NCBI RefSeq assembly: GCF_018811945.1
Contig: NZ_JACRVU010000011.1
Location: 1 to 64,000, forward strand
Source: Gluconobacter sp. P1C6_b
Lineage (GTDB): Bacteria; Pseudomonadota; Alphaproteobacteria; Acetobacterales; Acetobacteraceae
Reading direction: 5' to 3'
Length of the DNA: 64,000 bases
The notes below the pieces were generated by a model. That model did no database searches. It was not told where the DNA came from and saw nothing but the letters and a program-made list of their open reading frames with translations. A program made the translations under genes and the position numbers. Of the stretch, positions 31,269 through 45,820 are shown piece by piece. The number at the start of each line of letters is the position of its first letter. Position 1 is the stretch's first letter.

Positions 31269-32837
31269 TCAGGGGGCGCCGAGGCCGCCGCCGCCCGGTG
31301 TCAGGAGGACGAGAAGCTCGTCCGCTTCCAGAACCTGAAGACCCTTGCCCGCGAGCTTGCGGCCTGAGGCGGTTTCGACCCGGCCTGCCGCGCCGTCCTG
31401 TCCGCCGAGTGCGCCACGGGCCGGATGATCGACGCGGTCAAAGGCGGCCAGCAGCTCGAAGGGCTGTTTCTGGGTGGTGCCGATTTTCATGATCTGTCCG
31501 TCGCCGCCCTTTGTCTGCCCCAGACCGCCGCTGTTTTCACGCAATTCCTTTTCCCAGAAAATGAGCGGGCACTGGATTTCCGCGATTTCAACCGGGGTTC
31601 CATGCACGCCCGATGGAAAGGCCGTGGCGGACAGGCCGTTCAGGCCTGGGCGGGCCCCGGTGCCGCCATTGGTCGTGATGGCGAGCGCGTAGGTCTGGGG
31701 CGTGGTTGCTCCCTTCGGGAACCACTGTCCGCGCACGGCAATGTTCCACAGGCAGGATGTGCCCTCTGCTGGAACGCGCTCGGGCAGGGGCGTGCGCAGA
31801 CATCCGAACACCATGTCCGGCAGCATCTGTCCGATGACGTGGCGGGAGGAGACGGGGGCGGGACGCATTGCGTTCAGGACGGAACCTTCTGGTGCCTCGA
31901 CGTGATAGGGAGCCAGTGAGCCTGCGTTGTTGGGGACGTCTGGCGAGATCGCGCAAGCCAGCCCGAAGACCGTATAGGCGCGGGTATAGGCCATCGGGAC
32001 GTTGATCCCGCGTCCGACAGCAGGCGGTGAGCCGTCATAGCTGACGCTGACGCGGTTTTCGCCAACCGTGAGCTTTGCCTTGAGCGTGAGTGGCGCATTG
32101 TAGCCGTCGATCGTCATCTCGTGGCACCACGTGCCCTGCGGGAGGGCTGCGATCTTGTCGAGGACGGCTTGGCGGGAACGTTCGATGATGAAATCGGCCA
32201 GCGGTTCGAGACTGTCGAGGTGGAACTCGTCCATCATGTCGCACAGGGCGCGGACGCCCACATCATTGCAGGCTGCCAGAGAGTAGGTATCGCCTTCCGT
32301 ATCCACCGGCAGGCGCGTATTGGCGCGGATCATGGCCATCAACGTCTCGTTGACCTGTCCCTGATCAATCAGCTTGAGCATCGGGATCGAGAGGCCTTCC
32401 ATGAAGACGTCCGTTGCTTCCGGCCCGTTGCCCAGGCCGCCGATATCCATCAGATGGCTGGTGCAGGAGAACAGTCCGACCAGACGGCCTTTGTGGAACG
32501 CCGGGGTCGTGATGACGAAGTCGTTGAGATGCCCCGTTCCCATCCACGGATCGTTCGTGATGTAGGCGTCGCCCTCTTTCATGGTCGAAACGGGGAAGTG
32601 ACGCAGAAAATGGCCGACGGATTCCGCCATGGAATTGACGTGGCCGGGTGTGCCCGTCACGGCCTGCGCGATCATCCGCCCTTGCAGGTCGAAAATGCCG
32701 GCCGAGATGTCTTCGCATTCGCGGACGATGGGGCTGAAGGCCGTGCGGATCAGGACCTGCGCCTGTTCGCCGACCACGGCAATCAGGCGGTTCCACATGA
32801 TCTGGAAGTCGATTTCCTTATGGGAGTGCGCGCTCAT
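31269..32837 (-). CDS. hyuB: Hydantoinase B / 5-oxoprolinase subunit HyuB
   Basis: HyuB-type subunits work with HyuA in ATP-dependent opening of hydantoins or 5-oxoproline. The 522 aa protein shows the family start EIDFQIMWNRLIAVVGEQAQ, then RTAFSPIVRECEDISAGIFD, GTPGHVNSM and DAYITNDPWMGTGHLND, and the glycine-rich GQTKGGDGQ and LLTPGGGGLGAP C-terminus. Length is normal. ATG 32837 shares one base with the hyuA stop (TGATG), which forces coupled, probably stoichiometric translation. Hydantoinase and 5-oxoprolinase activities cannot be separated by sequence alone. Confidence 0.9.
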   Translation of the reverse strand: MSAHSHKEIDFQIMWNRLIAVVGEQAQVLIRTAFSPIVRECEDISAGIFDLQGRMIAQAVTGTPGHVNSMAESVGHFLRHFPVSTMKEGDAYITNDPWMGTGHLNDFVITTPAFHKGRLVGLFSCTSHLMDIGGLGNGPEATDVFMEGLSIPMLKLIDQGQVNETLMAMIRANTRLPVDTEGDTYSLAACNDVGVRALCDMMDEFHLDSLEPLADFIIERSRQAVLDKIAALPQGTWCHEMTIDGYNAPLTLKAKLTVGENRVSVSYDGSPPAVGRGINVPMAYTRAYTVFGLACAISPDVPNNAGSLAPYHVEAPEGSVLNAMRPAPVSSRHVIGQMLPDMVFGCLRTPLPERVPAEGTSCLWNIAVRGQWFPKGATTPQTYALAITTNGGTGARPGLNGLSATAFPSGVHGTPVEIAEIQCPLIFWEKELRENSGGLGQTKGGDGQIMKIGTTQKQPFELLAAFDRVDHPARGALGGQDGAAGRVETASGRKLAGKGLQVLEADELLVLLTPGGGGLGAP

Positions 32838-34927
32838 CAGACGGCGTCCTTCATGTCCAGAATGATGTTGCCGCTGCCGTCCAGATGGGCGGTGTAGCGG
32901 GAGGAAACGTAGGTCGTGGTTTCTTTTTCGGCGATCAGGGCGGGGCCGGGAACGCGGCTGCCTGGTCCCATGTCCGTACGTTCGTAGACCGGGAGGGCGA
33001 CATGCGTGCCGGTTGCGCCGTCGAAAAGTTTCCGGATGTCGGCGGAGACGGCGTCATGCAAGGCCGGGGCGGCCTCGAAGGGCGGATATTTTCGCGGGGT
33101 GGTGGAAACGCTGACGGACCAGTTCAGGATTTCGACGGCGGCATGGGGGATGACGCGGGCGAACTGACGGGCATATTCCGCTTCGAAGGCGTCCCGCAGG
33201 GCCGAAAGATGGTCGCTGCTGATGGCGCCGTCGGGCAGCGTGACGATGATTTCGTGTCCCTGTCCGACATAGCGCATGAAGGCCGCGCGCCTTGTGTGAA
33301 GCGTTTCCGTCCGGGCGTCGTCCTGCACCATGCCGTGGGCAGCCTGCGTCATGTCGTCGAGCAGGGCCGAAACTTCTGGCGAACTGAAGCTGTCGTCCAG
33401 ACGCATCGGGAAGGAGCGCACGAGTTCGAACGAAACGGGGGCGGCGAGGAAGCCTACGGCCGAGCCGACGCCTGCGTTCGAGGGAATGACGAGACGCCGG
33501 ATTCCGAGCTTTTCCGCAACACGGGCGGCATGGAGCGGGGCCGCGCCGCCGAAGGCGATCATCGTATGGTCGCCAATGACGGCGCCACGTTCGGCCGCAT
33601 GGACGCGCGCCGCACTGGCCATGTTTTCGCACACGATTTCATAGACCGCATGGGCGGACATTTCCGCCGACAGACCCAGCGGTGTTCCGATATCGGTCAG
33701 AAGCGCTTCGGCCGAGCGAGCCGGCTGGAGCTGGATGCTGCCGCCCGCGAAGTTTTCCGGGCGGATCAGGCCGAGCATGACGTCTGCATCCGTGACTGCC
33801 GGGCGCTTGCCCCCCAGTCCGTAACAGGCGGGGCCGGGAACGGAAGATGCGCTCTCCGGCCCGACGACAACGCGCTTCATCGCATCCAGATGGGCGATGG
33901 AGCCGCCGCCCGCGCCGATCTCGACCATTTCGATTACGGGAATGCGCAGGGGCAGGCCGGAGCCTTTCATGAAGCGGGCCGTGCGGTCCACTTCGAAGAA
34001 ACGGGACGATGCGGGTTCCCCGTCTTCGATCAGGCAGACCTTGGCGGTCGTGCCGCCCATATCGAAGGACAGGACGCGGTTTTCGGCCAGCCGCTCGGCG
34101 CATTGTGCGGCAAAGATCGCACCACCCGCCGGGCCGGATTCCACAAGACGCACGGGGAACTGCCGGGCCGTCTCCAACGCGGTGAGGCCTCCGCCGGAGG
34201 TGACGAGATAGAGCGCACCCTGAAAGCCTTTTGCATCAAGGGATTGGCGCAGGCGTCCCAGATAGCCCGCCATCAGGGGTTGGACGTAAGCATTCGCGAC
34301 GGTGGTGGAGGTGCGTTCATATTCCCGGATTTCTGGGCAGACCTCACTTGAAATGGAAATGGTGATGTCCGGCATACCCTCCTGAAGGAGCGCCTGCACG
34401 CGGCGTTCATGGGCCGGATTGGCATAGGCATGGAGGAACGCCACCGCGATGCTTTCGACACCGGCATCGCGCAATTGCGGCACGAGCGCCAGAACGGCGG
34501 CTTCATCCAGCGGAAGCTGGACGGTGCCGCGGGCGTCCATGCGCTCGGGGACGGTGAAGCGCAGGTCGCGGGGGACGAGCGGGCTGGGCTTTTGCAGCAT
34601 CAGGTCATACTGGTTGAAGCGGCTTTCGGTGCCGATTTCCAGAATGTCGCGGAAGCCCTGCGTTCCGATGAGAGCTGTGCGGGCGCCCCGGCGTTCGATG
34701 ATCGCATTGGTCGCAAGCGTCGTGCCATGCACGAAGACTGTCACGTCCGGAAAGCGCAGTCCGGCGTCTTCGATCACAAGGCTGATGCCGCTCATGACCC
34801 CTTCTTCGGGCGCGGCGGGCGTGGTGAGGACCTTGCGGGTCAGACGTCCCTGCGGTGTCTGGAGAACCACGTCCGTGAATGTGCCACCGATATCAGCGGC
34901 GAGACGGATTTGTGTACTGTCGACCAT
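32837..34927 (-). CDS. hyuA: Hydantoinase A / 5-oxoprolinase subunit HyuA
   Basis: This 696 aa subunit carries the ATP-binding fold. AADIGGTFTDVVL at residues 10-22 is the phosphate-1 motif of the acetate kinase/HSP70/actin superfamily, VFVHGTTLATNAIIER follows at about 63, SGPAGGAIFA and FDMGGTTAKVCLI in the middle are the second nucleotide-binding elements. It is the first gene of the hyuA-hyuB unit and is divergent from a MarR-type regulator gene (75-bp gap), which is the likely controller. It is equivalent to the N-terminal half of eukaryotic OPLAH. Confidence 0.9.
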   Translation of the reverse strand: MVDSTQIRLAADIGGTFTDVVLQTPQGRLTRKVLTTPAAPEEGVMSGISLVIEDAGLRFPDVTVFVHGTTLATNAIIERRGARTALIGTQGFRDILEIGTESRFNQYDLMLQKPSPLVPRDLRFTVPERMDARGTVQLPLDEAAVLALVPQLRDAGVESIAVAFLHAYANPAHERRVQALLQEGMPDITISISSEVCPEIREYERTSTTVANAYVQPLMAGYLGRLRQSLDAKGFQGALYLVTSGGGLTALETARQFPVRLVESGPAGGAIFAAQCAERLAENRVLSFDMGGTTAKVCLIEDGEPASSRFFEVDRTARFMKGSGLPLRIPVIEMVEIGAGGGSIAHLDAMKRVVVGPESASSVPGPACYGLGGKRPAVTDADVMLGLIRPENFAGGSIQLQPARSAEALLTDIGTPLGLSAEMSAHAVYEIVCENMASAARVHAAERGAVIGDHTMIAFGGAAPLHAARVAEKLGIRRLVIPSNAGVGSAVGFLAAPVSFELVRSFPMRLDDSFSSPEVSALLDDMTQAAHGMVQDDARTETLHTRRAAFMRYVGQGHEIIVTLPDGAISSDHLSALRDAFEAEYARQFARVIPHAAVEILNWSVSVSTTPRKYPPFEAAPALHDAVSADIRKLFDGATGTHVALPVYERTDMGPGSRVPGPALIAEKETTTYVSSRYTAHLDGSGNIILDMKDAV

Positions 34928-35002: not shown

Positions 35003-35566
35003 ATGAAGGACGGGAAAACCGGGAGCCGTACGCCGGCAATGCCGGATGTTGCTGATATGGAACGGGCCTTCATCGTGTCGTCGTCGCATCTGGCGCTGCC
35101 GGGCAACGAGGATCTGAGCGAATTCGAATTTGCCCTGACCGTCGTGAACCATGCGTTTCATCGCTGGATGTCGCGTGGGATGGCGGCGGCGGGTCTGCCG
35201 GATCTCTCGGCGCTCGACACGCTCATTCTGCACAGCGTCAATCACCGGAACCGGGAGAAGAGTATCTCGGACCTGATGTTCACCCTGAACCTGTCCGAGC
35301 GGCATTACCTGAACTACGCCATGAAGAAGCTCGACGAGCTCGCGCTGATCCAGCGCGAACGCCGGGGCAAGGAGGTTTTTGTCAGCACGACACAGAAAGG
35401 GCGCGACGTCTGTCTCGAATATGCGCGTCTGCGTCGGATCTGCCTGCTGGAGCATATTCCCCAGAACCGGGAAGTCGGGGACGTCACGATTGCAGAGGTC
35501 GCCAAGGCGTTGCGTGTCCTGACGGGATTTTACGAGCAGGCGTCGCGGTCCGCCGCATCCCTCTGA
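35003..35566 (+). CDS. MarR-type winged-helix regulator
   Basis: The 187 aa protein has a central winged helix: ALDTLILHSVNHRNREKSISDLMFTLNLSE-type segment (about residues 70-100) followed by YAMKKLDELALIQRERRGKEVFVSTTQKGRD, the recognition helix and wing of MarR-like proteins. Flanking helices would form the dimer. It is divergent from hyuA across 75 bp, containing its own GAGAGGA ribosome site, so it probably controls hyuAB. It converges with the carrier-like gene at 35577. Confidence 0.82.
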   Translation: MKDGKTGSRTPAMPDVADMERAFIVSSSHLALPGNEDLSEFEFALTVVNHAFHRWMSRGMAAAGLPDLSALDTLILHSVNHRNREKSISDLMFTLNLSERHYLNYAMKKLDELALIQRERRGKEVFVSTTQKGRDVCLEYARLRRICLLEHIPQNREVGDVTIAEVAKALRVLTGFYEQASRSAASL

Positions 35567-35576
35567 GCGCGGCGTC

Positions 35577-35975
35577 TCAGCCATCCGGATGAATCCGGAA
35601 GAGCACGTCGTGATAGCCCACAACGCTGCCATCCCCGACCAGCGCCGGGCCGAGTGTGCCGTCCGCCGTGGTCGTAACGGGAAGGCGGAGGGCGCCCGTC
35701 TCTACAAATCCTACAATTTCCCCGGTTCGGACTGCCTGACCTTCGCTCAGGCCGTTTGAGCGGAACACACCCATTTCAGGGCTTGGAACGCGCGTGTCTT
35801 CCACTTTTGCAGGAGCAGAAACAGGGTGTGCGTGAAACGTCTGACCCGGGTTCGCCGACAGTGTCAGGGCAAGCGTGCCCGTCCCGTTTTTCAGAGAAAC
35901 ATGACGGACATCGTGATGCCTCATCCGGCCAACCAGTCCGGGCAGGGCGTTCAGAAGGTCTTCAAGAAAAGTCAT
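35577..35975 (-). CDS. Biotin-carrier-like protein without the biotinyl lysine
   Basis: The 132 aa protein has the layout of a biotin carboxyl carrier protein: an N-terminal helical segment, a proline-rich linker (SAPAKVEDTRVPSP) and a hammerhead-like domain (MGVFRSNGLSEGQAVRTGEIVGFVE). Where the family has (A/V)MK(M/T), this protein reads ETGALR at residues 92-97, so no lysine is available for biotin. The start overlaps the accC stop by ATGA. It may be a structural or regulatory subunit of the biotin-dependent complex encoded upstream; a decayed duplicate is the alternative, but the frame is intact. Confidence 0.72.
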   Translation of the reverse strand: MTFLEDLLNALPGLVGRMRHHDVRHVSLKNGTGTLALTLSANPGQTFHAHPVSAPAKVEDTRVPSPEMGVFRSNGLSEGQAVRTGEIVGFVETGALRLPVTTTADGTLGPALVGDGSVVGYHDVLFRIHPDG

Positions 35976-37342
35976 GATCCGGACTTTCGCATGAGGGCTT
36001 CGAGATAGTGCACGCTGACGCTGCCTTCGCGCACGCCGGGCTCGTTCATCAGGCGCAGATGCAGGGGCGTGGTGGTGGCGATGCCGGTGATTTGCATTTC
36101 CGAAAGGGCGGCATGCATGCGGTTGAGGGCATCCGTGCGGTCCGTGCCGTGGACGATCAGCTTGGCGATCAGGGAGTCGTAATTCGGGGGCACGACATAG
36201 CCGTCATAGAGATGCGTATCGATACGGACGCCGGGGCCGCCGGGCGCGCGCCAGCTCACCACTTTTCCGGGGGCCGGGCGGAAGCTCTCGGGGTCTTCGG
36301 CGTTGATGCGGCACTCGATAGCGTGGCCTTGCGTGCTGATGTCGGCCTGGGTGAAGGAGAGGGGCTGTCCCATTGCGATCAGGAGTTGCTCGCGGACGAT
36401 GTCGATGCCGGTCGTCATTTCCGTGACGGGGTGTTCGACCTGAAGGCGGGTGTTCATCTCGATGAAGGAAAACGCGCCGTCTTCGTACAGGAACTCGAAC
36501 GTGCCCGCGCCGGTATAGCCCATCAGGGTGCAGGCGTTTGCACAGCGCTCGCCCAGTTCGGCAATGGCCTGCGGGTCGATGCCGGTGGCCGGAGCTTCCT
36601 CGACCAGTTTCTGGTGGCGGCGCTGGATGGAGCAGTCCCGGGCGCCGAGCCAGACGGCATTGCCCTGCCGGTCGGCGAGAACCTGAATTTCGATGTGGCG
36701 GGGATGCTGGAGGAAGCGTTCGGCATAGACGGACGGATTGCCGAAGGCGCGTCCGGCTTCTTCGCGAGCCGTTTCGATGGCGTCGCGGAGGTCTGCTGCG
36801 GTCATGACCACGCGCATACCGCGCCCGCCGCCGCCGCCTGCCGCCTTGACGATCAGCGGATAGCCGATGGCGTCGCAGATCGTCTGGGCTTCGGACAGGT
36901 CGGTCGGCAGGGCGTCTTCCGTACCGGGCAGGCAGGGGACGCCGGAGCGGCGCATCTGCTGTTTGGCGCTGATCTTGTCGCCCATCAGGCGCATGATGGC
37001 GGCGGTTGGGCCTGCCAGCGTGCGGCCGGACTGTTCCACAGCCTCGGCGAAATCAGCATTTTCGGACAGGAAGCCGTAGCCGGGATGGATGATGTCGGCG
37101 TTCGTGAGTTCGGCGGCGCGCAGGACGCGGGCGGCGTCCAGATAGCTGCCGGATGCTGCTGCCGGGCCGATGCAGAGCGTTTCGTCCACGAGGCGCAGAT
37201 GGGCGAGGCTGGCATCGGCTTCGGAATGGATGCCGATGCTGTGCAGGCCCAGCAGGCGGCAGGCCCGCGTGATGCGCAGGGCGATTTCACCGCGATTGGC
37301 GATCAGGACACGGGCGGGGACGGATACTGCGGGCTCACGCAT
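35972..37342 (-). CDS. Biotin carboxylase (AccC-like)
   Basis: The enzyme carboxylates biotin on a carrier protein with ATP and bicarbonate. From ATG 37342 (overlapping the biotin-carrier stop by 8 bp) it is 456 aa, the normal length of stand-alone AccC. Key motifs are VLIANRGEIALRI, HPGYGFLSENADFAE, the ATP-grasp glycine loop KAAGGGGGRGMR, and FIEMNTRLQVEHPVTEMTTGIDIV. No AccA/AccD or propionyl-type carboxyltransferase is nearby; instead PxpB and PxpC, homologous to the urea-carboxylase carboxyltransferase domain, are in the same operon. It is thus probably not a housekeeping fatty-acid enzyme, hence no gene symbol. Confidence 0.9.
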   Translation of the reverse strand: MREPAVSVPARVLIANRGEIALRITRACRLLGLHSIGIHSEADASLAHLRLVDETLCIGPAAASGSYLDAARVLRAAELTNADIIHPGYGFLSENADFAEAVEQSGRTLAGPTAAIMRLMGDKISAKQQMRRSGVPCLPGTEDALPTDLSEAQTICDAIGYPLIVKAAGGGGGRGMRVVMTAADLRDAIETAREEAGRAFGNPSVYAERFLQHPRHIEIQVLADRQGNAVWLGARDCSIQRRHQKLVEEAPATGIDPQAIAELGERCANACTLMGYTGAGTFEFLYEDGAFSFIEMNTRLQVEHPVTEMTTGIDIVREQLLIAMGQPLSFTQADISTQGHAIECRINAEDPESFRPAPGKVVSWRAPGGPGVRIDTHLYDGYVVPPNYDSLIAKLIVHGTDRTDALNRMHAALSEMQITGIATTTPLHLRLMNEPGVREGSVSVHYLEALMRKSGS

Positions 37343-37787
37343 CGAGTGGCTCCACGGTGAAGAGCGGCGTTCCTGGGGAGACGGCATCTGCATTCGCGGC
37401 CAGCACGGCGACGATCCGGCAGGGGAATTCGGCCTCGATGCGCGAGAGCGTTTTCATGACTTCGAGAATATAGAGCGGCTGTCCTTCCGCCACGATGTCG
37501 CCCGGCTTGACGAAAGGCGGCGCATCCGGGGCCGGGGAGGCGTAGAACTGGCCGTGCATGGGGGCGTCGATCGTGGTTTCGGTTTTGGCCGGAGCGGAGG
37601 CTTTTTCGAGGACAGAAAGCGTGGAGGCTGCGGCCGCCGGGGCCGGGCTGGTCGGCTGGGGGCTACTGTCCTGTGCGCCGCGCACCAGACGGATGTGCTC
37701 GCCGTCACGGGAATAGTCGAGTTCGGTAATGCCCAGCGCCTGCATCCGGGCCATCAGGGCGTCGAGGATCTTGAGATCGGGGATCAT
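37335..37787 (-). CDS. Biotin carboxyl carrier protein
   Basis: This 150 aa protein carries an Ala/Pro-rich linker (residues 42-60) and a biotinyl domain. PMHGQFY at 77-83 and LEVMKTLSRIEAE at 109-120 give Lys112 as the biotinylation site, with VMKT replacing the common AMKM. It lies 25 bp after pxpA and overlaps accC by 8 bp. Along with the lysine-less paralogue at 35577 it is one of two carriers in the operon. Its presence between the Pxp genes and biotin carboxylase suggests it feeds the PxpB/PxpC complex. Confidence 0.88.
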   Translation of the reverse strand: MIPDLKILDALMARMQALGITELDYSRDGEHIRLVRGAQDSSPQPTSPAPAAAASTLSVLEKASAPAKTETTIDAPMHGQFYASPAPDAPPFVKPGDIVAEGQPLYILEVMKTLSRIEAEFPCRIVAVLAANADAVSPGTPLFTVEPLDA

Positions 37788-37812
37788 GGGGCGGTTGGCT
37801 TTCCGGTCTGCT

Positions 37813-38577
37813 TCAGGTCAGGGCGCGCAAAGTGATGCCCGCGGCTTCGAAGCCCGCGCGGACCTTGCGGGCGACCTCCACGGATTCCGCGTTGTCCCCA
37901 TGCACGCAGATCGTATCAATGCGGGTCGGCAGCATTTTTCCGGAGATGGTTTCGATGGCGCCGGCCTGCACCATGCGCACGGCGCGGGCGGCCGCGAATT
38001 CGGCATCATGCAGGACCGCTCCCGGCTCCTTGCGCGAGACGAGATGCCCGTCTTCCGTATAGGCGCGGTCCGCGAAGATTTCCGAGAACACGGTCAGGCC
38101 CCGCTCGCGTCCGATGCGGTCCAGATGGCTCAGGGCGATGGCCATGATGGGGAGGTTCGGATCAACCGCCTTGACCGCATTGACGATGGCTTCGGCAACG
38201 GCGGGATCGCGTTCGGTCAGGTTACCCAGCGCGCCATGGGTTTTCATGTAGGTCATGCGGTGGCCGGAATAGGTGGCGAGGGCCTGGGCCGCGCCCATCT
38301 GGTAGGCCACGATCCGTTCGATCTGGGCGGGTGTGAAGGGCATGACGCGGCGTCCGAAGCCCCACAGGTCCGGGAAGCCGGGATGGGAGCCGACGGAGAC
38401 GCCTTTTTCGCGTGCGATGCGGAAGGTCTCGGCCATGACTTCCGGGTCGCCGCCGTGAAAGCCGCAGGCGACGTTGGCGGAGGTCACGATGTCCAGCATC
38501 GCGCTGTCATTGCCCATTGTGTAATGGCCGAAGCTCTCGCCCAGATCGGCGTTCAGGTCGATGGTTTTGGCGGTCAT
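37813..38577 (-). CDS. pxpA: 5-oxoprolinase subunit PxpA (LamB/YcsF family)
   Basis: PxpA, with PxpB and PxpC, opens 5-oxoproline to glutamate with ATP. The 254 aa protein starts at ATG 38577, after GGGAG, where the family begins with DLNADLGESFG. Other conserved segments are SANVACGFHGGDP, VGSHPGFPDLWGFGRR, KTHGALGN and CVHGDN. It follows pxpC by 35 bp. Family members are annotated from B. subtilis YcsF, whose neighbours include the DUF1445 gene ycsI; the same association is seen in this window. Confidence 0.92.
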   Translation of the reverse strand: MTAKTIDLNADLGESFGHYTMGNDSAMLDIVTSANVACGFHGGDPEVMAETFRIAREKGVSVGSHPGFPDLWGFGRRVMPFTPAQIERIVAYQMGAAQALATYSGHRMTYMKTHGALGNLTERDPAVAEAIVNAVKAVDPNLPIMAIALSHLDRIGRERGLTVFSEIFADRAYTEDGHLVSRKEPGAVLHDAEFAAARAVRMVQAGAIETISGKMLPTRIDTICVHGDNAESVEVARKVRAGFEAAGITLRALT

Positions 38578-38612
38578 GGTGTCAGAACTCCCGGACATGA
38601 AATAACAGGGCA

Positions 38613-39584
38613 TCAGAAAACGAGCTGTGTGCGGAGTGTGGCGATTTCGGCGGCAAGACGCTCCAGATCCGTAGCCTCCCGCCGGATGATCTGCACCGCT
38701 TCATCGCGCGTGATGGTTTCGAAATGGACGGGCGCGCCGACGACCGTCTGGGACAGCAGGCGCAGGTCCGGCGCAATCACGGTGGCGATCTTGGGATAGC
38801 CGCCGCAGGTATTGGCATCCATCATCTGGATGATCGGCTGTCCCGCAGGCGGCACCTGAACGGTTCCGGGTAGGATGCCGTGGGAAAACAGGCTGAGCGG
38901 CTGCGTCAGTACCAGTGCGTCCTGTCCTTCCAGACGGTATCCCATCCGGTTGGCGCTGGGCGTCAGGGTCCAGGCAGCGGAATGGAAGGTTTTCAGGCTT
39001 TCGGGCGTGAAGACGTCGTGTTCGGCGGCGGGCAGGACGCGGATCCGGGTGCCGTCCGCGGGCGGAAGCGGGCAGGGGCGTGCGAGGCCGTAGCCTGCGG
39101 CGGGCAGGCGCAGCGTGGAGGCTGCGAGGCAGGACAGGCGGTCGCCTTTCTGGAGAGCACGGCCCTCAAGGCCGCCGAAGCCGCCTTTAAGATCCGTCGA
39201 ACGTGCGCCCAGAACCGACGGCACATCCAGGCCGCCACGGAGCGTCAGATAGGCGCGGGCACCCCGTTCCGGCGCGCGGAGCGTGAGGGTCTGGCCGGGT
39301 CTTGCGGTGATGGCCCAGTCGCGCGGGAGTTTCAGGTCGTCCAGCATGGCGGGGCAGGCGGCGCCGGTGACGGCAAAGGACGTCTCGGCGTGAAAGCGCA
39401 CGCGGAAGGGGAAGAACACGATCTCAATCCCGGCAGCGTCCACCGGATTGTCGAGAAGCAGGTTACCGTAGCTCAGGGCCAGACGGTCCATGGCGCCGCC
39501 CTGCGCCACGCCCATGGCCATGGCGTGAGGGCGGCCGAAATCCTGAATGGTGTTGAGGGAGGAGCCGGTGAGGATTTCGATCAT
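38613..39584 (-). CDS. pxpC: 5-oxoprolinase subunit PxpC / biotin-dependent carboxyltransferase family (KipA, AHS2)
   Basis: The 323 aa protein starts at ATG 39584 in ATGA overlap with pxpB. It shows the AHS2/KipA pattern: SLNTIQDFGRPHAMAMGVAQGGAMDRLA near the N-terminus, GNLLLDNPVDAAGIE, AYLTLRGGLDVPSVLGARSTD, and NRMGYRLEG and GTVQVPPAGQPIIQMMD later. The same domain forms half of the carboxyltransferase of urea carboxylase. PxpC normally serves the ATP-dependent 5-oxoprolinase; with a biotin carboxylase and carrier in this operon, a carboxyl-transfer role is an open alternative. Confidence 0.9.
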   Translation of the reverse strand: MIEILTGSSLNTIQDFGRPHAMAMGVAQGGAMDRLALSYGNLLLDNPVDAAGIEIVFFPFRVRFHAETSFAVTGAACPAMLDDLKLPRDWAITARPGQTLTLRAPERGARAYLTLRGGLDVPSVLGARSTDLKGGFGGLEGRALQKGDRLSCLAASTLRLPAAGYGLARPCPLPPADGTRIRVLPAAEHDVFTPESLKTFHSAAWTLTPSANRMGYRLEGQDALVLTQPLSLFSHGILPGTVQVPPAGQPIIQMMDANTCGGYPKIATVIAPDLRLLSQTVVGAPVHFETITRDEAVQIIRREATDLERLAAEIATLRTQLVF

Positions 39585-40222
39585 GAGGCCCTCACGAAAC
39601 GGACAGTGTCGCCCAGTCGCAGCAGGCCGGGCTCGGGACGGAAGGCGTCGAACAGGCACAGATCCGTCCGGCCGAGGATATGCCAGCCGGATGGCGAGGT
39701 GCAGGGCATCACGCCTGCGTGGCCGCCGCCGATGACGACTGCCCCCTCTTCGACCCGCAGGCGCGGAGAGTCGCGGCGCGGGATGGCCAGTCGCGGGTCC
39801 AGTCCGGTCAGGTACACGAAACCCGCCATGGCGCCGATGGCGGCTACGCTGTAGCGCCCGGATGTATGGGCTTCGATGGTTTCCTCTTCCGTCAGGTTGG
39901 CGAAGCGGGCGATGAGCGCCAGATCTTCGCCGAATGCCCCGCCATAGACCACCGGCACCACGATCTCGCGGGACGGCACCTCTTCGGCGGAGGCGTGTGT
40001 CCAGACGGTCCGGAGAAGCTCCTCCATGGCGGAAGGGTCAGTCTGTGCGGCGTCGAACGTGACGAGAAGGTTGTTGACGCCTGGGATGGTCTGGAGGACG
40101 TCCGGTCGGGTGTTGAGCGCGCGGCTGGTGGCCCAGATGCGGCGCTGTGTCGTGTCGCTGAACGGGCCATCGGCGGCGTCCAGCAGGAGGCCGCCCGCGC
40201 CTGCCATGTGAATACGGGTCAT
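39581..40222 (-). CDS. pxpB: 5-oxoprolinase subunit PxpB (KipI, AHS1)
   Basis: Homology begins at ATG 40222, although the frame is open 975 bases further upstream, giving 213 aa, the usual PxpB length. Conserved elements are IPGVNNLLVTFD, the EIVVPVVYGGAFGEDL stretch, and the AGFVYLTGLDPRLAIPRRDSPR-type and GWHILGRT segments of the KipI/AHS1 family. In B. subtilis the homologue also inhibits the KinA kinase; here the metabolic context favours the catalytic role. It overlaps the MFS gene upstream and pxpC downstream by 4 bp each. Confidence 0.92.
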   Translation of the reverse strand: MTRIHMAGAGGLLLDAADGPFSDTTQRRIWATSRALNTRPDVLQTIPGVNNLLVTFDAAQTDPSAMEELLRTVWTHASAEEVPSREIVVPVVYGGAFGEDLALIARFANLTEEETIEAHTSGRYSVAAIGAMAGFVYLTGLDPRLAIPRRDSPRLRVEEGAVVIGGGHAGVMPCTSPSGWHILGRTDLCLFDAFRPEPGLLRLGDTVRFVRAS

Positions 40223-41460
40223 GCGGTCTGGTCCGGCTGGGAGCGGCCATGGAACGGCCGCCGGGGAAGGAGGGCAGCGGCCAGCGCGCCGCACAGGATG
40301 ATGATGCCCGTGATATAGAAAACGCCGTGGAAATTGCCGGTGGCCTGTAGCAGATACCCCGTCATGACCGGGGCCAGAATGCCAAGGCCGTTGGAGAAGG
40401 TCAGGGTCAGGCCGGTTACGGAGCCGAGGATTTCGTCTTCCACCAGCAGGTCCGCCAGAAGGGCCATGTTGGCCCCCGTTCCGCCTGCCATGAAGGCCAT
40501 GGAAACGGCGAGGAGCGGAATGATGGTCGTGGCCGTTCCGCAGAGCGGCAGAAATCCCATGGAGGAGGCCAGAACGAGATACAGGCAGACGACCTTGCGG
40601 CGTCCTCCCAGAGAAAGGTCTGATCCGCGAACGAGCGTTTCGCCAATTTTTCCTGCCGTGATCGACAGGATGGCCGCGCCGACATAGCAGTAGGCCGTAT
40701 AGGCTCCGGACTGTTCGGTGCCGAGATGCAGGGTCTGGCGCATGATGATCGGCAGCCAGGACATCAAGAGGAAGTTGGCGTAATTGGCGCAGCACTGCGC
40801 GATCACGATGCCCCAGAAAGCCGAGGAGCGGAACAGGGTCGGCACCGAGATCAGGGAAAAGGACGTGGCCTGTGTGCCGCGTGCGGGGCGCGGGTGGGTC
40901 AGGAGCCAGACCGCCGACCAGACCAGCCCCAGCGCGCCGAGCAGCGAAAACGCCGGGCGCCAGCCGTAATGGGCGATCAGCCACCCGCCAGAGGCGGCAC
41001 CGCAGGCCAGCCCGATGGGGATGCCGCAGATGAAGGCGGTCATCATCAGGCCACGTTCGTGCAACGGTGCCCAGGCCCGGACGACCTTGTTGCCGAGTGC
41101 GAAGGTGGGGGCCTCCCCGACGCCCAGCAGAATGCGCGTGGCGATGAAGGCGGGGACGGTGGCGGTCAGGCTGCCGAGGATCATGGCGAGCGACCACAGG
41201 GCGACGGCCGCCGCGCCGATGATCCGCACGCCAAAGCGGTCCAGAAGGATCGCGCTGGGCAGGTTGAGGATGAAATAGGACCAGAGGAAGCTGGAGAGGA
41301 CCCAGCCCGTCTCCCCTGGTGTGAGTGCGAATTCATGGGCGATCTGGGGCATGCCTACGGAAAGGGCGGCCCGGTCTCCGTAGCAGATCACGCACATGGC
41401 GATGGTGAGGGCGTATATGACGAACCGGAAAGGCCGGCGATCTTCTGGAACTGTCTGCAA
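40219..41460 (-). CDS. MFS transporter 3 (anion:cation symporter type), TTG start
   Basis: The frame is open to 41805 inside the TonB gene, but protein homology starts just upstream of the segment FVIYALTIAMCVICYGDRAALSVG. TTG 41460, eight bases after AGAGG, is the only start with a good ribosome site, giving 413 aa and 12 membrane segments. The LLDRFGVRIIG loop and GDRAALS motif fit ACS-family carriers. The gene lies 53 bp after TonB receptor 3 and overlaps pxpB, so outer-membrane uptake, inner-membrane uptake and ring opening are on one transcript. Confidence 0.87.
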   Translation of the reverse strand: MQTVPEDRRPFRFVIYALTIAMCVICYGDRAALSVGMPQIAHEFALTPGETGWVLSSFLWSYFILNLPSAILLDRFGVRIIGAAAVALWSLAMILGSLTATVPAFIATRILLGVGEAPTFALGNKVVRAWAPLHERGLMMTAFICGIPIGLACGAASGGWLIAHYGWRPAFSLLGALGLVWSAVWLLTHPRPARGTQATSFSLISVPTLFRSSAFWGIVIAQCCANYANFLLMSWLPIIMRQTLHLGTEQSGAYTAYCYVGAAILSITAGKIGETLVRGSDLSLGGRRKVVCLYLVLASSMGFLPLCGTATTIIPLLAVSMAFMAGGTGANMALLADLLVEDEILGSVTGLTLTFSNGLGILAPVMTGYLLQATGNFHGVFYITGIIILCGALAAALLPRRPFHGRSQPDQTA

Positions 41461-41513
41461 GAAATGCGCCTCTTTCCGGTGGATCTCAGTCGGTCTGTCT
41501 TCAGAAACCGGTC

Positions 41514-44015
41514 TTAGAAAGTCAGGCCGGTCTGGATGTAATACATGCCGCCATTGAAGCCGTACGGCGAGTAGTAGGCGTATTTGTATTCGTTGAAGAG
41601 CGGCGCTGCGGTCGCCTTGGGAACGCGGGTCGGATATTTGTTGCCCAGATTGTTCGCGCCCACCGTGACGCTCCATTTCGGCAGGATCTTGTAGCTGACG
41701 GACATGTTGGTCAGGAAGGCCGGGCGCTGCTCCATGGGAGCGGCGGTTGGGCTGGCGAGGAAGATGATGGAGCCGTAGCGCTGTTCCTGCACCATGACGT
41801 TCCACTTGCCGTAATTCCAGTTGACCGTGAGGTTTTCGCGGTTCTTCGGTGCGGAGTGCAGAAGCATCTCCTCGGCATAGGTGTTGAACGTGGACAGGCC
41901 CATGTTCGCCAGAACGGCAGGTGTCTTGTTGCGGCTGCGGATTTCGTTGTCGGAGTAGTTGAACGTGAAGTCGAAGCGGAAGGTGCCAGCGCGTTTGGTG
42001 TGCAGGGTGTAGTTGGTGTCGATGTCTCCGCCGAAGGTCTCGGTATTGACGGGGTTGGTATAATACGAGGCGTAGGTCACGTTATTCAGGCCGGACGCGG
42101 CAAGAATGTCAGCAACACCTGACCCGCCGAGGGTTGTTGTGCTGGCCAGACGGTCATTGATCGCGATGTAGTAAAGATTGCCCGTTACGTTCCAGTCCTT
42201 GAGGGGGCTGGCATCGATGCCGATGGTGTAGTTGCGGGAATATTCACCCTTGATATGACCCGCACCAAGCGCCTTTGCGGCGGCGCTGCTGTTGGGAAGC
42301 TGGTCCACGGCATAGTTGGCGAAGGGCGCATTATAGAAATAATAAGTCTGGCCCAGGGTGGGTGGCCGATAGCCGGTGTTGATGCTGGCGCGGATGGCCC
42401 AATGTTTGTTGAAGTTGTAGCGGGTTCCGATCGAGCCGGTGGTGACGGTGGCGAGATGGCTGTAGCTCGTTGCACGGCCACCCAGAGACCATTCCCATTT
42501 TTTGGTGACATAGAAATCGAGATTGACGTTGCCGTCATAGATGTCGCGCCCGCGATTGGTCACGGCCAGCGGGACGTTACCGGCATGATCGGTGGCGCCG
42601 AGGCCGATCCAGGAAGCTTCCTCGCCTTCCGTCATCTGGAAGGTGTCACGCCGGTATTCTCCGCCAAAACGCAGGGCGATCGGCTTGGGAAGCCATGAGG
42701 TGTGGAAAAAGCGTGACCCGCGCAGGCCTGTGGAAAGCTCGGACGTGATTGTCTTGCCGTCATAGAAATCGCGCGGGCTGGCATCCCCGAGAGACATGTT
42801 GTTGCTGTCGAGGGTCGAATAGGCCTGATCATCGCGGCCGTAATTGACATACGCATCCCACGCGAAACCGAATTTATGCGCCTTGATACCATTATCAGTT
42901 TCGAAATCGTACTGGTCCATGCCGATGTAAGGCTGAGCGCCATTCGGCCAGAGATTGATGTTGGTCAGGCTGTTTCCGGCACTGCGATAGGTCTCGGCCA
43001 CATGGGCCTTGCGGTGGCTGAATGTCGAGGTGCTGTAGAGGCTGAGGTTTTCGTTCAGCGGGACAGACATGTTCTCGCTGAGGGTTTCCAGTGTCGATTT
43101 TGGAATGCCCAAGCCGCGCTGAACATCCCGGCTGGCCGTTTCGTTGCGGGAATCACCGACAGGATAGAGCTGCCCTACGAAGAGGCCGCTGCGGTTGGTG
43201 GGAAGCTGGTGAGTAACCTGGGCCGCAAGATCGAGATAGCCGCCGCTTTTGCCAAGTGCTGTGGCCCAATCCGCATAACCGTTCAGCGCCTGCCCGTCAC
43301 CGGCATAAAAGCCGCTGTTCTGGAAGTTGATGGAGCCGCCATGGGTGCGCTGTTTGAGCACGATATTGACGGCACCTGCCAGTGCATCCTGACCGTAAAG
43401 TGCCGAGGCACCCTCGGTAATGACTTCGATATGATCGATCGCCGAAATCGGGATCAGCGAGATGTCGGTGGGTTCGGTGCCCCAGTTCGGGCCGGCATTG
43501 GCGTTGAAATTCGCACCGATATGGCGGCGATGTCCGTTGACGAGGATCAGCGTGTCATCAGCGGACTGGCCGCGAAGCTGCATGGTCTGGATAAAGCCGC
43601 TATTTCCGACACCGGATTGTGGCGGGGACGTAATGGATGCCGAGGCCTGAGCGAGGGCCTGCATGACATTCGTCTGTCCTGTGGCCAGAAGCTGGCTGCC
43701 GGAGACGACCGTAACCTGTGTGGTGCCGTGAACCGGGGTGGAGGGATTCATTACGGATTGACCGGTGGAGGCGGTCCCAGTGACGCGCATCTCTTCCGGA
43801 TCGGATCTCGAAATGATGGATGTCCTGCGAGGGGAGGGTCTGGCAGGAGTTGCGGTAACCAGGGTGCTCGCGGCCCGCCGCTGCGTTTTGTGCGTGGAAT
43901 GTGTCTGCGTCGTTGCTTTGGTGGACGCGGCCTGTGCGGGCGGACAGAGCGAAACGAGCGAGCTCAGGGCAGCGCCACACATCAGGAAAGCCTTGGGTCC
44001 GAAACACTTGCTCAT
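41514..44015 (-). CDS. TonB-dependent outer-membrane receptor 3
   Basis: About 833 aa from ATG 44015, whose ribosome site AAAAGGGG lies six bases upstream; ATG 44021 has no spacing. Signal peptide to about residue 30, plug with QTNVMQALAQAS, MQLRGQSADDTLILVNGHRRH and IEVITEGASALYGQDALAGAVNIVLK, then a barrel ending SPYGFNGGMYYIQTGLTF. It is a paralogue of receptor 2. It is the first gene of an operon that continues through an MFS carrier, pxpB, pxpC, pxpA, biotin carrier, biotin carboxylase and carrier-like protein. LysR regulator 2 is divergent across 263 bp. Probable ligand: a 5-oxoproline- or lactam-containing compound (inference). Confidence 0.9.
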   Translation of the reverse strand: MSKCFGPKAFLMCGAALSSLVSLCPPAQAASTKATTQTHSTHKTQRRAASTLVTATPARPSPRRTSIISRSDPEEMRVTGTASTGQSVMNPSTPVHGTTQVTVVSGSQLLATGQTNVMQALAQASASITSPPQSGVGNSGFIQTMQLRGQSADDTLILVNGHRRHIGANFNANAGPNWGTEPTDISLIPISAIDHIEVITEGASALYGQDALAGAVNIVLKQRTHGGSINFQNSGFYAGDGQALNGYADWATALGKSGGYLDLAAQVTHQLPTNRSGLFVGQLYPVGDSRNETASRDVQRGLGIPKSTLETLSENMSVPLNENLSLYSTSTFSHRKAHVAETYRSAGNSLTNINLWPNGAQPYIGMDQYDFETDNGIKAHKFGFAWDAYVNYGRDDQAYSTLDSNNMSLGDASPRDFYDGKTITSELSTGLRGSRFFHTSWLPKPIALRFGGEYRRDTFQMTEGEEASWIGLGATDHAGNVPLAVTNRGRDIYDGNVNLDFYVTKKWEWSLGGRATSYSHLATVTTGSIGTRYNFNKHWAIRASINTGYRPPTLGQTYYFYNAPFANYAVDQLPNSSAAAKALGAGHIKGEYSRNYTIGIDASPLKDWNVTGNLYYIAINDRLASTTTLGGSGVADILAASGLNNVTYASYYTNPVNTETFGGDIDTNYTLHTKRAGTFRFDFTFNYSDNEIRSRNKTPAVLANMGLSTFNTYAEEMLLHSAPKNRENLTVNWNYGKWNVMVQEQRYGSIIFLASPTAAPMEQRPAFLTNMSVSYKILPKWSVTVGANNLGNKYPTRVPKATAAPLFNEYKYAYYSPYGFNGGMYYIQTGLTF

Positions 44016-44278
44016 GGGCATCCCCTTTTCCGGCCTGTAGCGGGTGGTAATCCGAATATATGCTTTTCATGAGCAAATCACACATATAACGGAACAACAA
44101 CTAAAATGTTCTCCTTGAGAAACAGATTCGCTTTTCTGCCGATTTGTGCGGAAAACAGATTGTTTCGATCGTGTGCTCGCTCGCTGGAGTCTGATTTCCG
44201 GAAAGAGGGTAGCGCTTGAACGGACAAAAAAAATGAGTGAAAGTTGCGTCGAGAGAAAATTTTTGTGTCTGTCGATCT

Positions 44279-45169
44279 ATGATTTCCGAACTCAGAACAT
44301 TCGTCGTTGCGGCCCGGACGGAGAGTTTCGCCGCGACAGCCAAGGCGATCGGGGTGACGCAGTCGGCGATCAGCGCCCAGATCCGCCGGCTTGAAGAAGA
44401 ACTTGGCTACGAGCTTTTCGACCGTACGGGCAGGTCCGTAACGCTGACGGCAACCGGGAGCCTCATCCTGTGTCAGGTGGAGGATATCCTCTCATCTTTC
44501 GAGGCGCTCCGGGGGGCAGCGCGGCTTAGGCCAGAGAGCGAACTGCTGCGGGTGGGCGCCATTTCCACTGTTCAGACCAGCCTGCTCGCTCCTGCCATTG
44601 CAGGATTGCATCTTGAACTTCCTGACCTGAAAGTACGGATTGTTCCGGGGATTTCCATGGGTTTGCTGGATCGTCTGGATGCGGGTGAACTGGATGCCGC
44701 GCTGATCGTTCGACCGCCTTTCGGGTTGATGCCGTACATGCAGTGGCATCCTGTCGTGCAGCAGGATTATGTCATGATCGTTCCAGCACATATCCAAGGC
44801 ACGGACTGGCGGCAGGTCCTCGAAGAGGAGCCTTTCATTCGTTATGACAGCCGGTCCTTCGGAGGACGTACGCTCGATCGGTTCCTCAGAATGCAGGGAA
44901 TTGCTCCCCATGAGGTTATCGAGACTGAAGAACTTCACACGATCCTGCAGATGGTCGCCAACAATATGGGGTGCTCGATTGTACCTTATATCTTTGCGGT
45001 CAGCGTCGTGCCGAATATCCGTATCCTGCGGCTGGGAGACCAGAAGGTCGGGCGGGAAGTGGGGGTTATGACCTTGCGCGGCCGAATGACGGAAGGGTGC
45101 AAAGTTTTGATCAGGCATCTGGATGAAGCGGCCCGAAGCAATACTCCCCCTCAGGCACTGATATCGTGA
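44279..45169 (+). CDS. LysR-family transcriptional regulator 2
   Basis: ATG 44279 places the winged helix at the very N-terminus (TESFAATAKAIGVTQSAISAQIRRLEEELG) as in the family; the frame to 44237 adds 14 unlikely residues. The 296 aa total and the effector domain with VGAISTVQTSLLAPAIAGLH and LDAGELDAALIV are standard. It is divergent from TonB receptor 3, the classic LysR arrangement, so it most likely controls the receptor-MFS-pxp-biotin operon. The 263-bp gap (44016-44278) holds AT-rich stretches but no operator I can define. Confidence 0.88.
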   Translation: MISELRTFVVAARTESFAATAKAIGVTQSAISAQIRRLEEELGYELFDRTGRSVTLTATGSLILCQVEDILSSFEALRGAARLRPESELLRVGAISTVQTSLLAPAIAGLHLELPDLKVRIVPGISMGLLDRLDAGELDAALIVRPPFGLMPYMQWHPVVQQDYVMIVPAHIQGTDWRQVLEEEPFIRYDSRSFGGRTLDRFLRMQGIAPHEVIETEELHTILQMVANNMGCSIVPYIFAVSVVPNIRILRLGDQKVGREVGVMTLRGRMTEGCKVLIRHLDEAARSNTPPQALIS

Positions 45170-45176
45170 AAAACCT

Positions 45177-45567
45177 TCAGGCTGTTCCGCCCTTGTGGGC
45201 TGCCTGACCCAGGCCGAGCGTGACTGGATGGATCTCCAGACTTTCGAGCTTTCCGTTCTGATTAGGTGCCGATCGGCATGATGGTTTCCCAGAAGCGTAT
45301 CTCGGCGGGAAAACCTTTCACGTCGTTGTTGCAGCGGGTCTTGTAGAACTGATGGTGCGTCAGGTCAGGGCTGATGCGGTTGGCCATATAGGATTCGACC
45401 GGGAGGTGCTCCACGAGTTCATTCTGTCCGATGAAATTGCCCAGACTGTAGAAGATCGGCTTGCCATTATGGATTTCGAGGCCCCGTAACAGATGCGGTC
45501 CGTGACAGGCAACGATATCCGCACCGGCATCGAGCGTGCGGGTAAAAAAAGGATTCATGCCGCCTGA
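45177..45567 (-). pseudogene. CapA/PgsA-like gene remnant, C-terminal part, frameshifted
   Basis: The minus strand encodes LDAGADIVACHGPHLLRGLEIH and GKPIFYSLGNFIGQNE, the conserved C-terminal part of CapA (poly-gamma-glutamate/capsule biosynthesis-like metallophosphatase) proteins. After MPIGT a stop appears at 45262-45264, but another frame continues NGKLESLEIHPVTLGLGQAAHKGGTA to 45177, so one frameshift has split the tail. The N-terminal two thirds is missing; the 5' break abuts the transposase remnant at about 45570. Confidence 0.72.
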
Positions 45568-45587
45568 CTGCTCGCACCAAAGGCGGC

Positions 45588-45820
45588 ATGAATACAAAGC
45601 TGCATGCCGTGACCGACTGCAATGGGAGATCTCTGAGCTTCTTCATAACCGCAGGTCAGATCCGCGATTACACAGGGGCCGTCATAAACGCCGCAACCGC
45701 ATCGAGATCATGTTCGGAAGGCTCAAGGACTGGAGGCGGGTCGCCACTCGCTATGACAGATGCCCGACTGTTTTCTTCTCAGCCATCTGCCTCGCCACAA
45801 CCGTCATGTTCTGGCTATGA
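45588..45820 (+). pseudogene. IS5-group transposase remnant with internal deletion
   Basis: One frame begins MNTKLHAVTDCNGRSLSFFITAGQIRDYTGA. Another frame continues KRRNRIEIMFGRLKDWRRVATRYDR then CPTVFFSAICLATTVMFWL and stops at 45820. These are the middle and C-terminal parts of an IS1031-like transposase; the section between them, including the central DDE residues, is deleted. No terminal inverted repeats remain that I can pair. Confidence 0.78.

Follow-up and report, generated by a model that had tools for sequence, protein, structure and literature searches.

The PxpABC proteins of Escherichia coli (encoded by ybgJKL) form an ATP-dependent 5-oxoprolinase and have counterparts in Bacillus subtilis; how PxpABC activates a lactam is, to our knowledge, unsettled. 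In fungi, the lamA-lamB locus provides a fused version, the urea-amidolyase-like LamA acting with LamB, a member of the PxpA family, on 2-pyrrolidinone. Urea carboxylase and urea amidolyase combine biotin carboxylase (BC), biotin carboxyl carrier protein (BCCP), AHS2 and AHS1 parts, and caprolactamase CapAB and the ATP-dependent hydantoinase carry out an ATP-driven opening of lactams with proteins of other families and no biotin carrier. We analyzed a stretch of 64,000 nucleotides from Gluconobacter sp. P1C6_b (contig NZ_JACRVU010000011.1, positions 1 to 64,000, hereafter the window), in which an operon unites pxpA, pxpB and pxpC with genes for a BC, a BCCP and a second carrier devoid of the biotinyl lysine. 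This set shares three subunits with the E. coli system (its PxpC is 42% identical to YbgK over 300 aligned residues) and differs from it by its link to a BC, a BCCP and the lysine-less carrier; it has the parts of urea carboxylase but differs from that enzyme in being split, in including PxpA and in occupying another branch of the PxpC tree. In the portions of the literature available, no account was found of BC-linked PxpABC as a single system, nor of a lysine-less BCCP occurring with PxpABC; articles are cited below by PMC number.

The operon consists of eight tightly spaced genes on the minus strand, recognised from open reading frames and from Pfam and NCBIfam matches, which encode a TonB-dependent receptor, a carrier of the major facilitator superfamily (MFS), PxpB, PxpC, PxpA, BCCP, BC and the second carrier-like protein (Table 1). 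A first-pass annotation of this DNA had listed the same eight parts correctly, and its description of the spacing (gaps of at most about 53 bp and overlaps of 4-8 bp) is borne out: the MFS and TonB genes are 53 bp apart, 4-bp overlaps occur at MFS/pxpB, pxpB/pxpC and accC/carrier-like, an 8-bp overlap occurs at accB/accC, and accB and pxpA are separated by 25 bp. What it overlooked is that the sequence of the second carrier has no biotinyl lysine. PxpA and PxpC each have a single match in the genome; PxpC scores below the curated equivalog cut-off (295 bits vs 500) and above that of the broader TIGR00724 (271 vs 230). The gene order TonB-MFS-PxpB-PxpC-PxpA-BCCP-BC-carrier-like-HyuA-HyuB, with the HyuA-HyuB pair directly downstream of the operon, is identical in all nine named Gluconobacter loci, which are the matches (71-83% identity) of a scan with the carrier-like protein that reaches close relatives only; since all nine share this order, the arrangement is not due to chance. 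Two further genomes of the genus in the family sample gave zero CT_A_B matches, and the operon is therefore not universal in the genus.

The BC matches E. coli AccC at 13/13 of the active-site positions checked, which we take to be the correct ones, and shares 254 identities with this 449-residue protein; the BCCP carries Lys112 in an ILEVMKT motif, as had been stated. The two components required of a biotin-dependent carboxylase, namely an intact BC active site and a BCCP with its biotinyl lysine, thus appear, from the sequence, to be present, and the carboxyltransferase fold was recognised on the PxpB/PxpC side of this candidate carboxylase. The operon pair is an extra set, since contig C23 of the same genome carries a separate BC (56% identical) adjoining another carrier, and two carboxyltransferase-domain (PF01039) genes, presumably accA and accD, are located on contigs other than that of the operon. 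The earlier statement that AccA and AccD are absent therefore holds inside the operon and fails for the genome as a whole. A housekeeping role as the sole explanation of the operon BC and BCCP was set aside in view of these other genes; it is possible that the off-contig carboxyltransferase shares the operon BC and BCCP in trans.

The survey of neighbourhoods suggested in the first-pass annotation was carried out over the phylum and the family, in which PF02626 is present in 102 of 299 and 42 of 150 genomes, respectively. Loci with a stand-alone pxpC were taken with at most 7 kb on each side, some being cut by contig ends: 98 from the phylum, omitting urea-carboxylase-length frames and three fragments, and 40 from the family, after removal of urea-carboxylase-length frames, fragments at contig ends and the match of the window itself. 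A BC was identified inside the stretch around pxpC in 23/98 phylum loci and 29/40 family loci (raw counts). Three architectures were distinguished. In group I (31 loci, including the window and the nine Gluconobacter loci), BC, BCCP and a second, lysine-less carrier are encoded by separate genes; group II (12 loci) has a fused BC-BCCP and a fused PxpB-PxpC; group III (22 loci) has a longer PxpB and a PxpC nearest to urea carboxylase. A BC is present in the stretch at 31/31, 12/12 and 19/22 of these loci, respectively, and at 0/83 of the remaining, unlinked loci. The gene order varies among the group I loci, the gene set staying together, and the system is real and conserved. Five other group I genomes were searched with the window BC (G055, G074, G107, G253 and G265), and each has, away from the locus, another BC that is at least 51% identical to the query; that of G265 has one in-frame stop. 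Within group III, a second subset (L172, L174-L176, L181 and L186) has PxpC next to a very short carrier (EVMKMEV), and its BC sequences branch close to the base of the BC tree.

The most surprising part of the system is the lysine-less carrier. The profile and a structural model indicate that these proteins keep the carrier fold, and a BCCP-like fold without the biotinyl lysine, as in plant BADC, is predicted for them. BADC has been called peculiar to the plant enzyme, the heteromeric acetyl-CoA carboxylase, in which this BCCP-like protein, having lost the biotinylation motif, works beside BC and BCCP (PMC11926652). The likeness is drawn from the published description of BADC, and the window carrier differs in being bacterial and tied to PxpABC, its partner binding being predicted; we assume that it arose independently of BADC. 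One lysine-bearing and one lysine-less BCCP are present in all 25 group I loci counted, and lysine-less carriers number 0/12 in group II and 0/16 in group III, in a comparison that left out six Gluconobacter loci, seven loci with lipoyl-like or weak carrier-type matches and 21 of the 24 urea carboxylase loci. Of the lysine-less carriers, 24/25 form one clade together with that of the unlinked locus L067 (97 in the Shimodaira-Hasegawa-like approximate likelihood ratio test, SH-aLRT, on few columns). In the window and the nine Gluconobacter loci, the gene is open in 10/10 sequences, and its median dN/dS is 0.28 (44 pairs), which is looser than that of BCCP (0.14) and BC (0.05); the lysine-less carrier is under purifying selection in Gluconobacter, and decay of the gene was rejected on these two grounds. 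A search with a lysine-less profile gave matches in 367/385 genomes of the class, the best 30 checked being 29 ordinary BCCPs with MK and the window's own protein; this search was uninformative, its outcome applying to those 30 best matches. It is very improbable that the lysine-less carrier acts as a negative regulator, a decoy displacing BCCP rather than structural glue: an inhibitory role was once proposed for plant BADC, but the article reporting this itself argues against inhibition (PMC11926652), and the one-to-one presence in 25/25 group I loci fits a subunit at least equally well.

The gene content points to a multi-subunit, biotin-driven hydrolase of a lactam (or cyclic amide) with its own uptake system, a reading which in our judgement has an even chance of being correct. 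We infer that BC would use ATP and bicarbonate to load CO2 on the biotin of its dedicated BCCP (Lys112), and that the carboxyltransferase-fold pair PxpB-PxpC would transfer the carboxyl onto the substrate's amide; the substrate is probably a lactam or cyclic amide that the cell imports. The N-carboxylated ring would become electrophilic and might be opened by PxpA with water, after which the carbamate would release CO2; in this scheme CO2 would act catalytically, as an activator, and overall the lactam would be hydrolysed at the expense of ATP. The lysine-less BCCP paralogue may be a non-catalytic assembly or docking subunit tying BC-BCCP to PxpBC, as reported for plant BADC with acetyl-CoA carboxylase. 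Mechanisms of lactam opening involving bicarbonate are discussed in PMC8453981. More tentatively, group I as a whole might be a six-subunit lactam hydrolase of this kind, with CO2 as a recycled activator and a BADC counterpart assembling it, L067 borrowing the housekeeping BC-BCCP via the adaptor in much the same way as MSMEG_0435-0436 sits on the AccA3 complex. If this is true, bacteria have in the lysine-less carrier their own counterpart of a subunit called unique to the plant enzyme (PMC11926652), and non-biotinylated carrier copies became subunits more than once in evolution. Several PxpBC lineages accompany BC, and the compact operon makes the carboxybiotin activation of lactams directly testable; this gene set, shared by acetic-acid bacteria and related ones, suggests an unstudied, CO2-driven opening of lactam rings.

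Trees were built by a quick method, with SH-aLRT as the only support; the larger PxpC tree left out seven Gluconobacter rows, 18 of the 24 urea carboxylase rows and 11 rows with long branches or at contig ends, and the BC tree seven Gluconobacter and 18 urea carboxylase rows. The group I BC sequences form a single clade (24/24 rows, SH-aLRT 96), and so do the PxpC sequences of 23 group I rows plus L067 (99), within a larger set containing E. coli PxpC. In the PxpC trees, the urea carboxylases lie on one side of a branch, with group III adjacent and group II in one long clade (100). No group I row is on the urea carboxylase side, and the AHS2 of the window is thus not in that branch; the origin by splitting of a urea carboxylase, at which the first-pass annotation had hinted, is unsupported and was rejected. 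The single-chain urea carboxylase cut-off of TIGR02712 (1303.85) is likewise not reached by the separate proteins (BC 456, PxpC 143, PxpB 21 and BCCP 20 bits). The distance from urea carboxylase in the tree also speaks against a true carboxylase with a product that keeps its carboxyl group, as in urea carboxylase, and is hydrolysed by PxpA, the substrate being a non-lactam amide, a urea derivative or hydantoin. Although the parts list is the same and HyuA/HyuB-type genes adjoin the window operon and several group III loci, none of the operon proteins gave a Pfam match to an amidase-type allophanate hydrolase (the search covered the operon, not the rest of the genome), and this alternative is improbable.

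Since the window clade lies near E. coli PxpC and not near urea carboxylase, the use of carboxybiotin by the window PxpBC is likely but unproven, the evidence for it in group I being genetic. The proposal made in the first-pass annotation, either a 5-oxoprolinase using carboxybiotin or a lactam/amide carboxylase, is partly supported. The strongest outside evidence is PDB entry 9YX5, the M. smegmatis long chain acyl-CoA carboxylase complex "with MSMEG_0435-MSMEG_0436 bound" according to its title, in which a PxpBC-type pair occurs in a solved entry with AccA3, a subunit with described BC and BCCP domains (PMC11001197); the literature search found no publication on this entry. In the tree, the AHS2 chain of this entry, MSMEG_0435, falls with architecture II (SH-aLRT 99); the window belongs to architecture I.

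This difference of group is one of several points that weigh against biotin-driven lactam hydrolysis. The BC-pxpC proximity figures are raw counts, in which chance proximity may have a share. The window PxpB and PxpC come closest to the E. coli type, the ATP-dependent 5-oxoprolinase, which has no BC gene nearby, and group I retains the 5-oxoprolinase-type S234 and Q243, the Asp234 of urea carboxylase and group III being absent. Position 258 of PxpC, adjoining the conserved D-x-x-T/S-x-G-G motif, counts in favour of the biotin-driven reading: Gln occurs there in 63/75 unlinked rows, Asn in 14/15 group I rows (10 of the 15 being Gluconobacter), Pro in 12/12 group II and 24/24 urea carboxylase rows, and Val in 6/7 group III rows (E. 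coli PxpC has Leu253 and Gln258, the group I clade Gln253 and Asn258); this position was chosen by scanning and is a lead rather than a test, and PxpC 278 and PxpB 165, from the same scan, are mixed within group I. Also on the opposing side, the locus L083, which belongs to group I by gene content, has a PxpC outside the clade, with Gln258 kept and an unlinked sister. L067, inside the PxpC clade, has a lysine-less carrier (L067:3037-3429) near PxpABC and no BC within the stretch; the strong BC matches in its genome are two urea-carboxylase-length frames and a single AccC-length frame. PxpBC is moreover said to hydrolyse ATP by itself (PMC8453981). As a separate observation, the case of L083 and L076 may reflect a second acquisition of the BC/BCCP/lysine-less set.

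Some of these points favour an ordinary, biotin-free ATP-dependent 5-oxoprolinase, with BC, BCCP and the lysine-less carrier serving some other, loosely linked reaction or tuning acetyl-CoA carboxylase, which we consider rather unlikely. The lack of a linked BC at L067 and the ATP hydrolysis by PxpBC itself are in line with it; among solved structures, E. coli YbgK and YbgJ are the closest to PxpC and PxpB, the PxpA keeps nearly all the positions that the unlinked set conserves (A44G and A66S are among the exceptions), and Corynebacterium glutamicum grows on 5-oxoproline with pxpTABC, the word "carboxylase" occurring 0 times in the main text of the article (PMC13274462). Against it, the operon holds no other carboxyltransferase, the genome having its two PF01039 genes on other contigs and a separate BC-BCCP pair on C23, and BC and the two carriers remain with the pxp genes despite differing gene orders. 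Besides a member of the group I clade, G222 (L067 and L050) and G369 (L171 and L195) each hold an unlinked set, and G405 (L197 and L165) holds a group III set; redundancy of the clade with the ordinary enzyme is therefore unlikely. Outside the Pseudomonadota, Lactiplantibacillus pentosus TBRC 20328 is reported to carry an additional copy of BC/BCCP as well as pxpB/pxpC in the absence of pxpA, treated as separate findings in the article (PMC12427679), and this is possibly the same kind of system.

Table 1. Features of the window in and around the pxp operon (positions in the window).
Feature	Positions	Strand	Evidence and remarks
HyuB/CapB-type subunit	31269..32837	-	NCBIfam caprolactamase beta 150 bits, below cut-off 1000
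HyuA/CapA-type subunit	32837..34927	-	PF01968 263 bits; NCBIfam caprolactamase alpha 498 bits, below cut-off 1000; possibly related function
Winged-helix (MarR-like) regulator	35003..35566	+	between operon and HyuAB
Lysine-less BCCP paralogue, 132 aa	35577..35975	-	AccB-like N-terminal part and biotinyl-domain barrel; biotin-lysine hairpin replaced by ETGALRLPV
BC, AccC type, 456 aa	35972..37342	-	NCBIfam accC 633 bits vs cut-off 626.5; earlier ATG at 37393 possible
BCCP	37335..37787	-	Biotin_lipoyl 1.3e-13; Lys112
PxpA (LamB/YcsF)	37813..38613	-	PF03746 320 bits; NCBIfam PxpA subfamily 368 bits vs cut-off 226; alternative ATG at 38577
PxpC (CT_A_B / AHS2), 323 aa	38613..39584	-	
PxpB (CT_C_D / AHS1), 213 aa	39581..40222	-	PF02682 215 bits; NCBIfam PxpB equivalog 178.7 bits vs cut-off 145.6
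MFS carrier	40219..~41460	-	PF07690 8e-56; candidate TTG start at 41460
TonB-dependent receptor	41514..44021	-	Plug and beta-barrel Pfam matches; alternative ATG at 44015, the end given in the first-pass annotation
LysR-type regulator	44237..45169	+	PF00126, PF03466; divergent from operon
Stretch resembling end of CapA-type polyglutamate protein	45262..45597	-	by eye
Transposase-like stretch	45536..45820	+	by eye

The HyuA/HyuB pair is CapAB-like, and two putative amide-opening systems adjoin each other in the window; HyuA- and/or HyuB-type genes are also present near the group III loci L066, L165, L167, L169, L172, L176 and L177. The divergent LysR-type regulator may control the operon. An aspartate-aminotransferase-like gene was found at 17/23 of the group I loci examined vs 0/12 in group II, 0/22 in group III and 2/83 among the unlinked loci (L067 and L123); the corresponding figures for group I and the unlinked loci, each from one query, are 14/23 vs 1/83 for a short-chain dehydrogenase and 9/23 vs 1/83 for LysR. 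Amino-acid ABC, MFS or EamA transport genes recur at the group I loci. No aminotransferase gene is present at the Gluconobacter loci, which carry TonB, MFS and HyuAB genes instead, and the nearest two copies in the genome of the window are 49% identical and located on contig C25. At L196, the group I genes likewise have TonB and MFS genes as neighbours.

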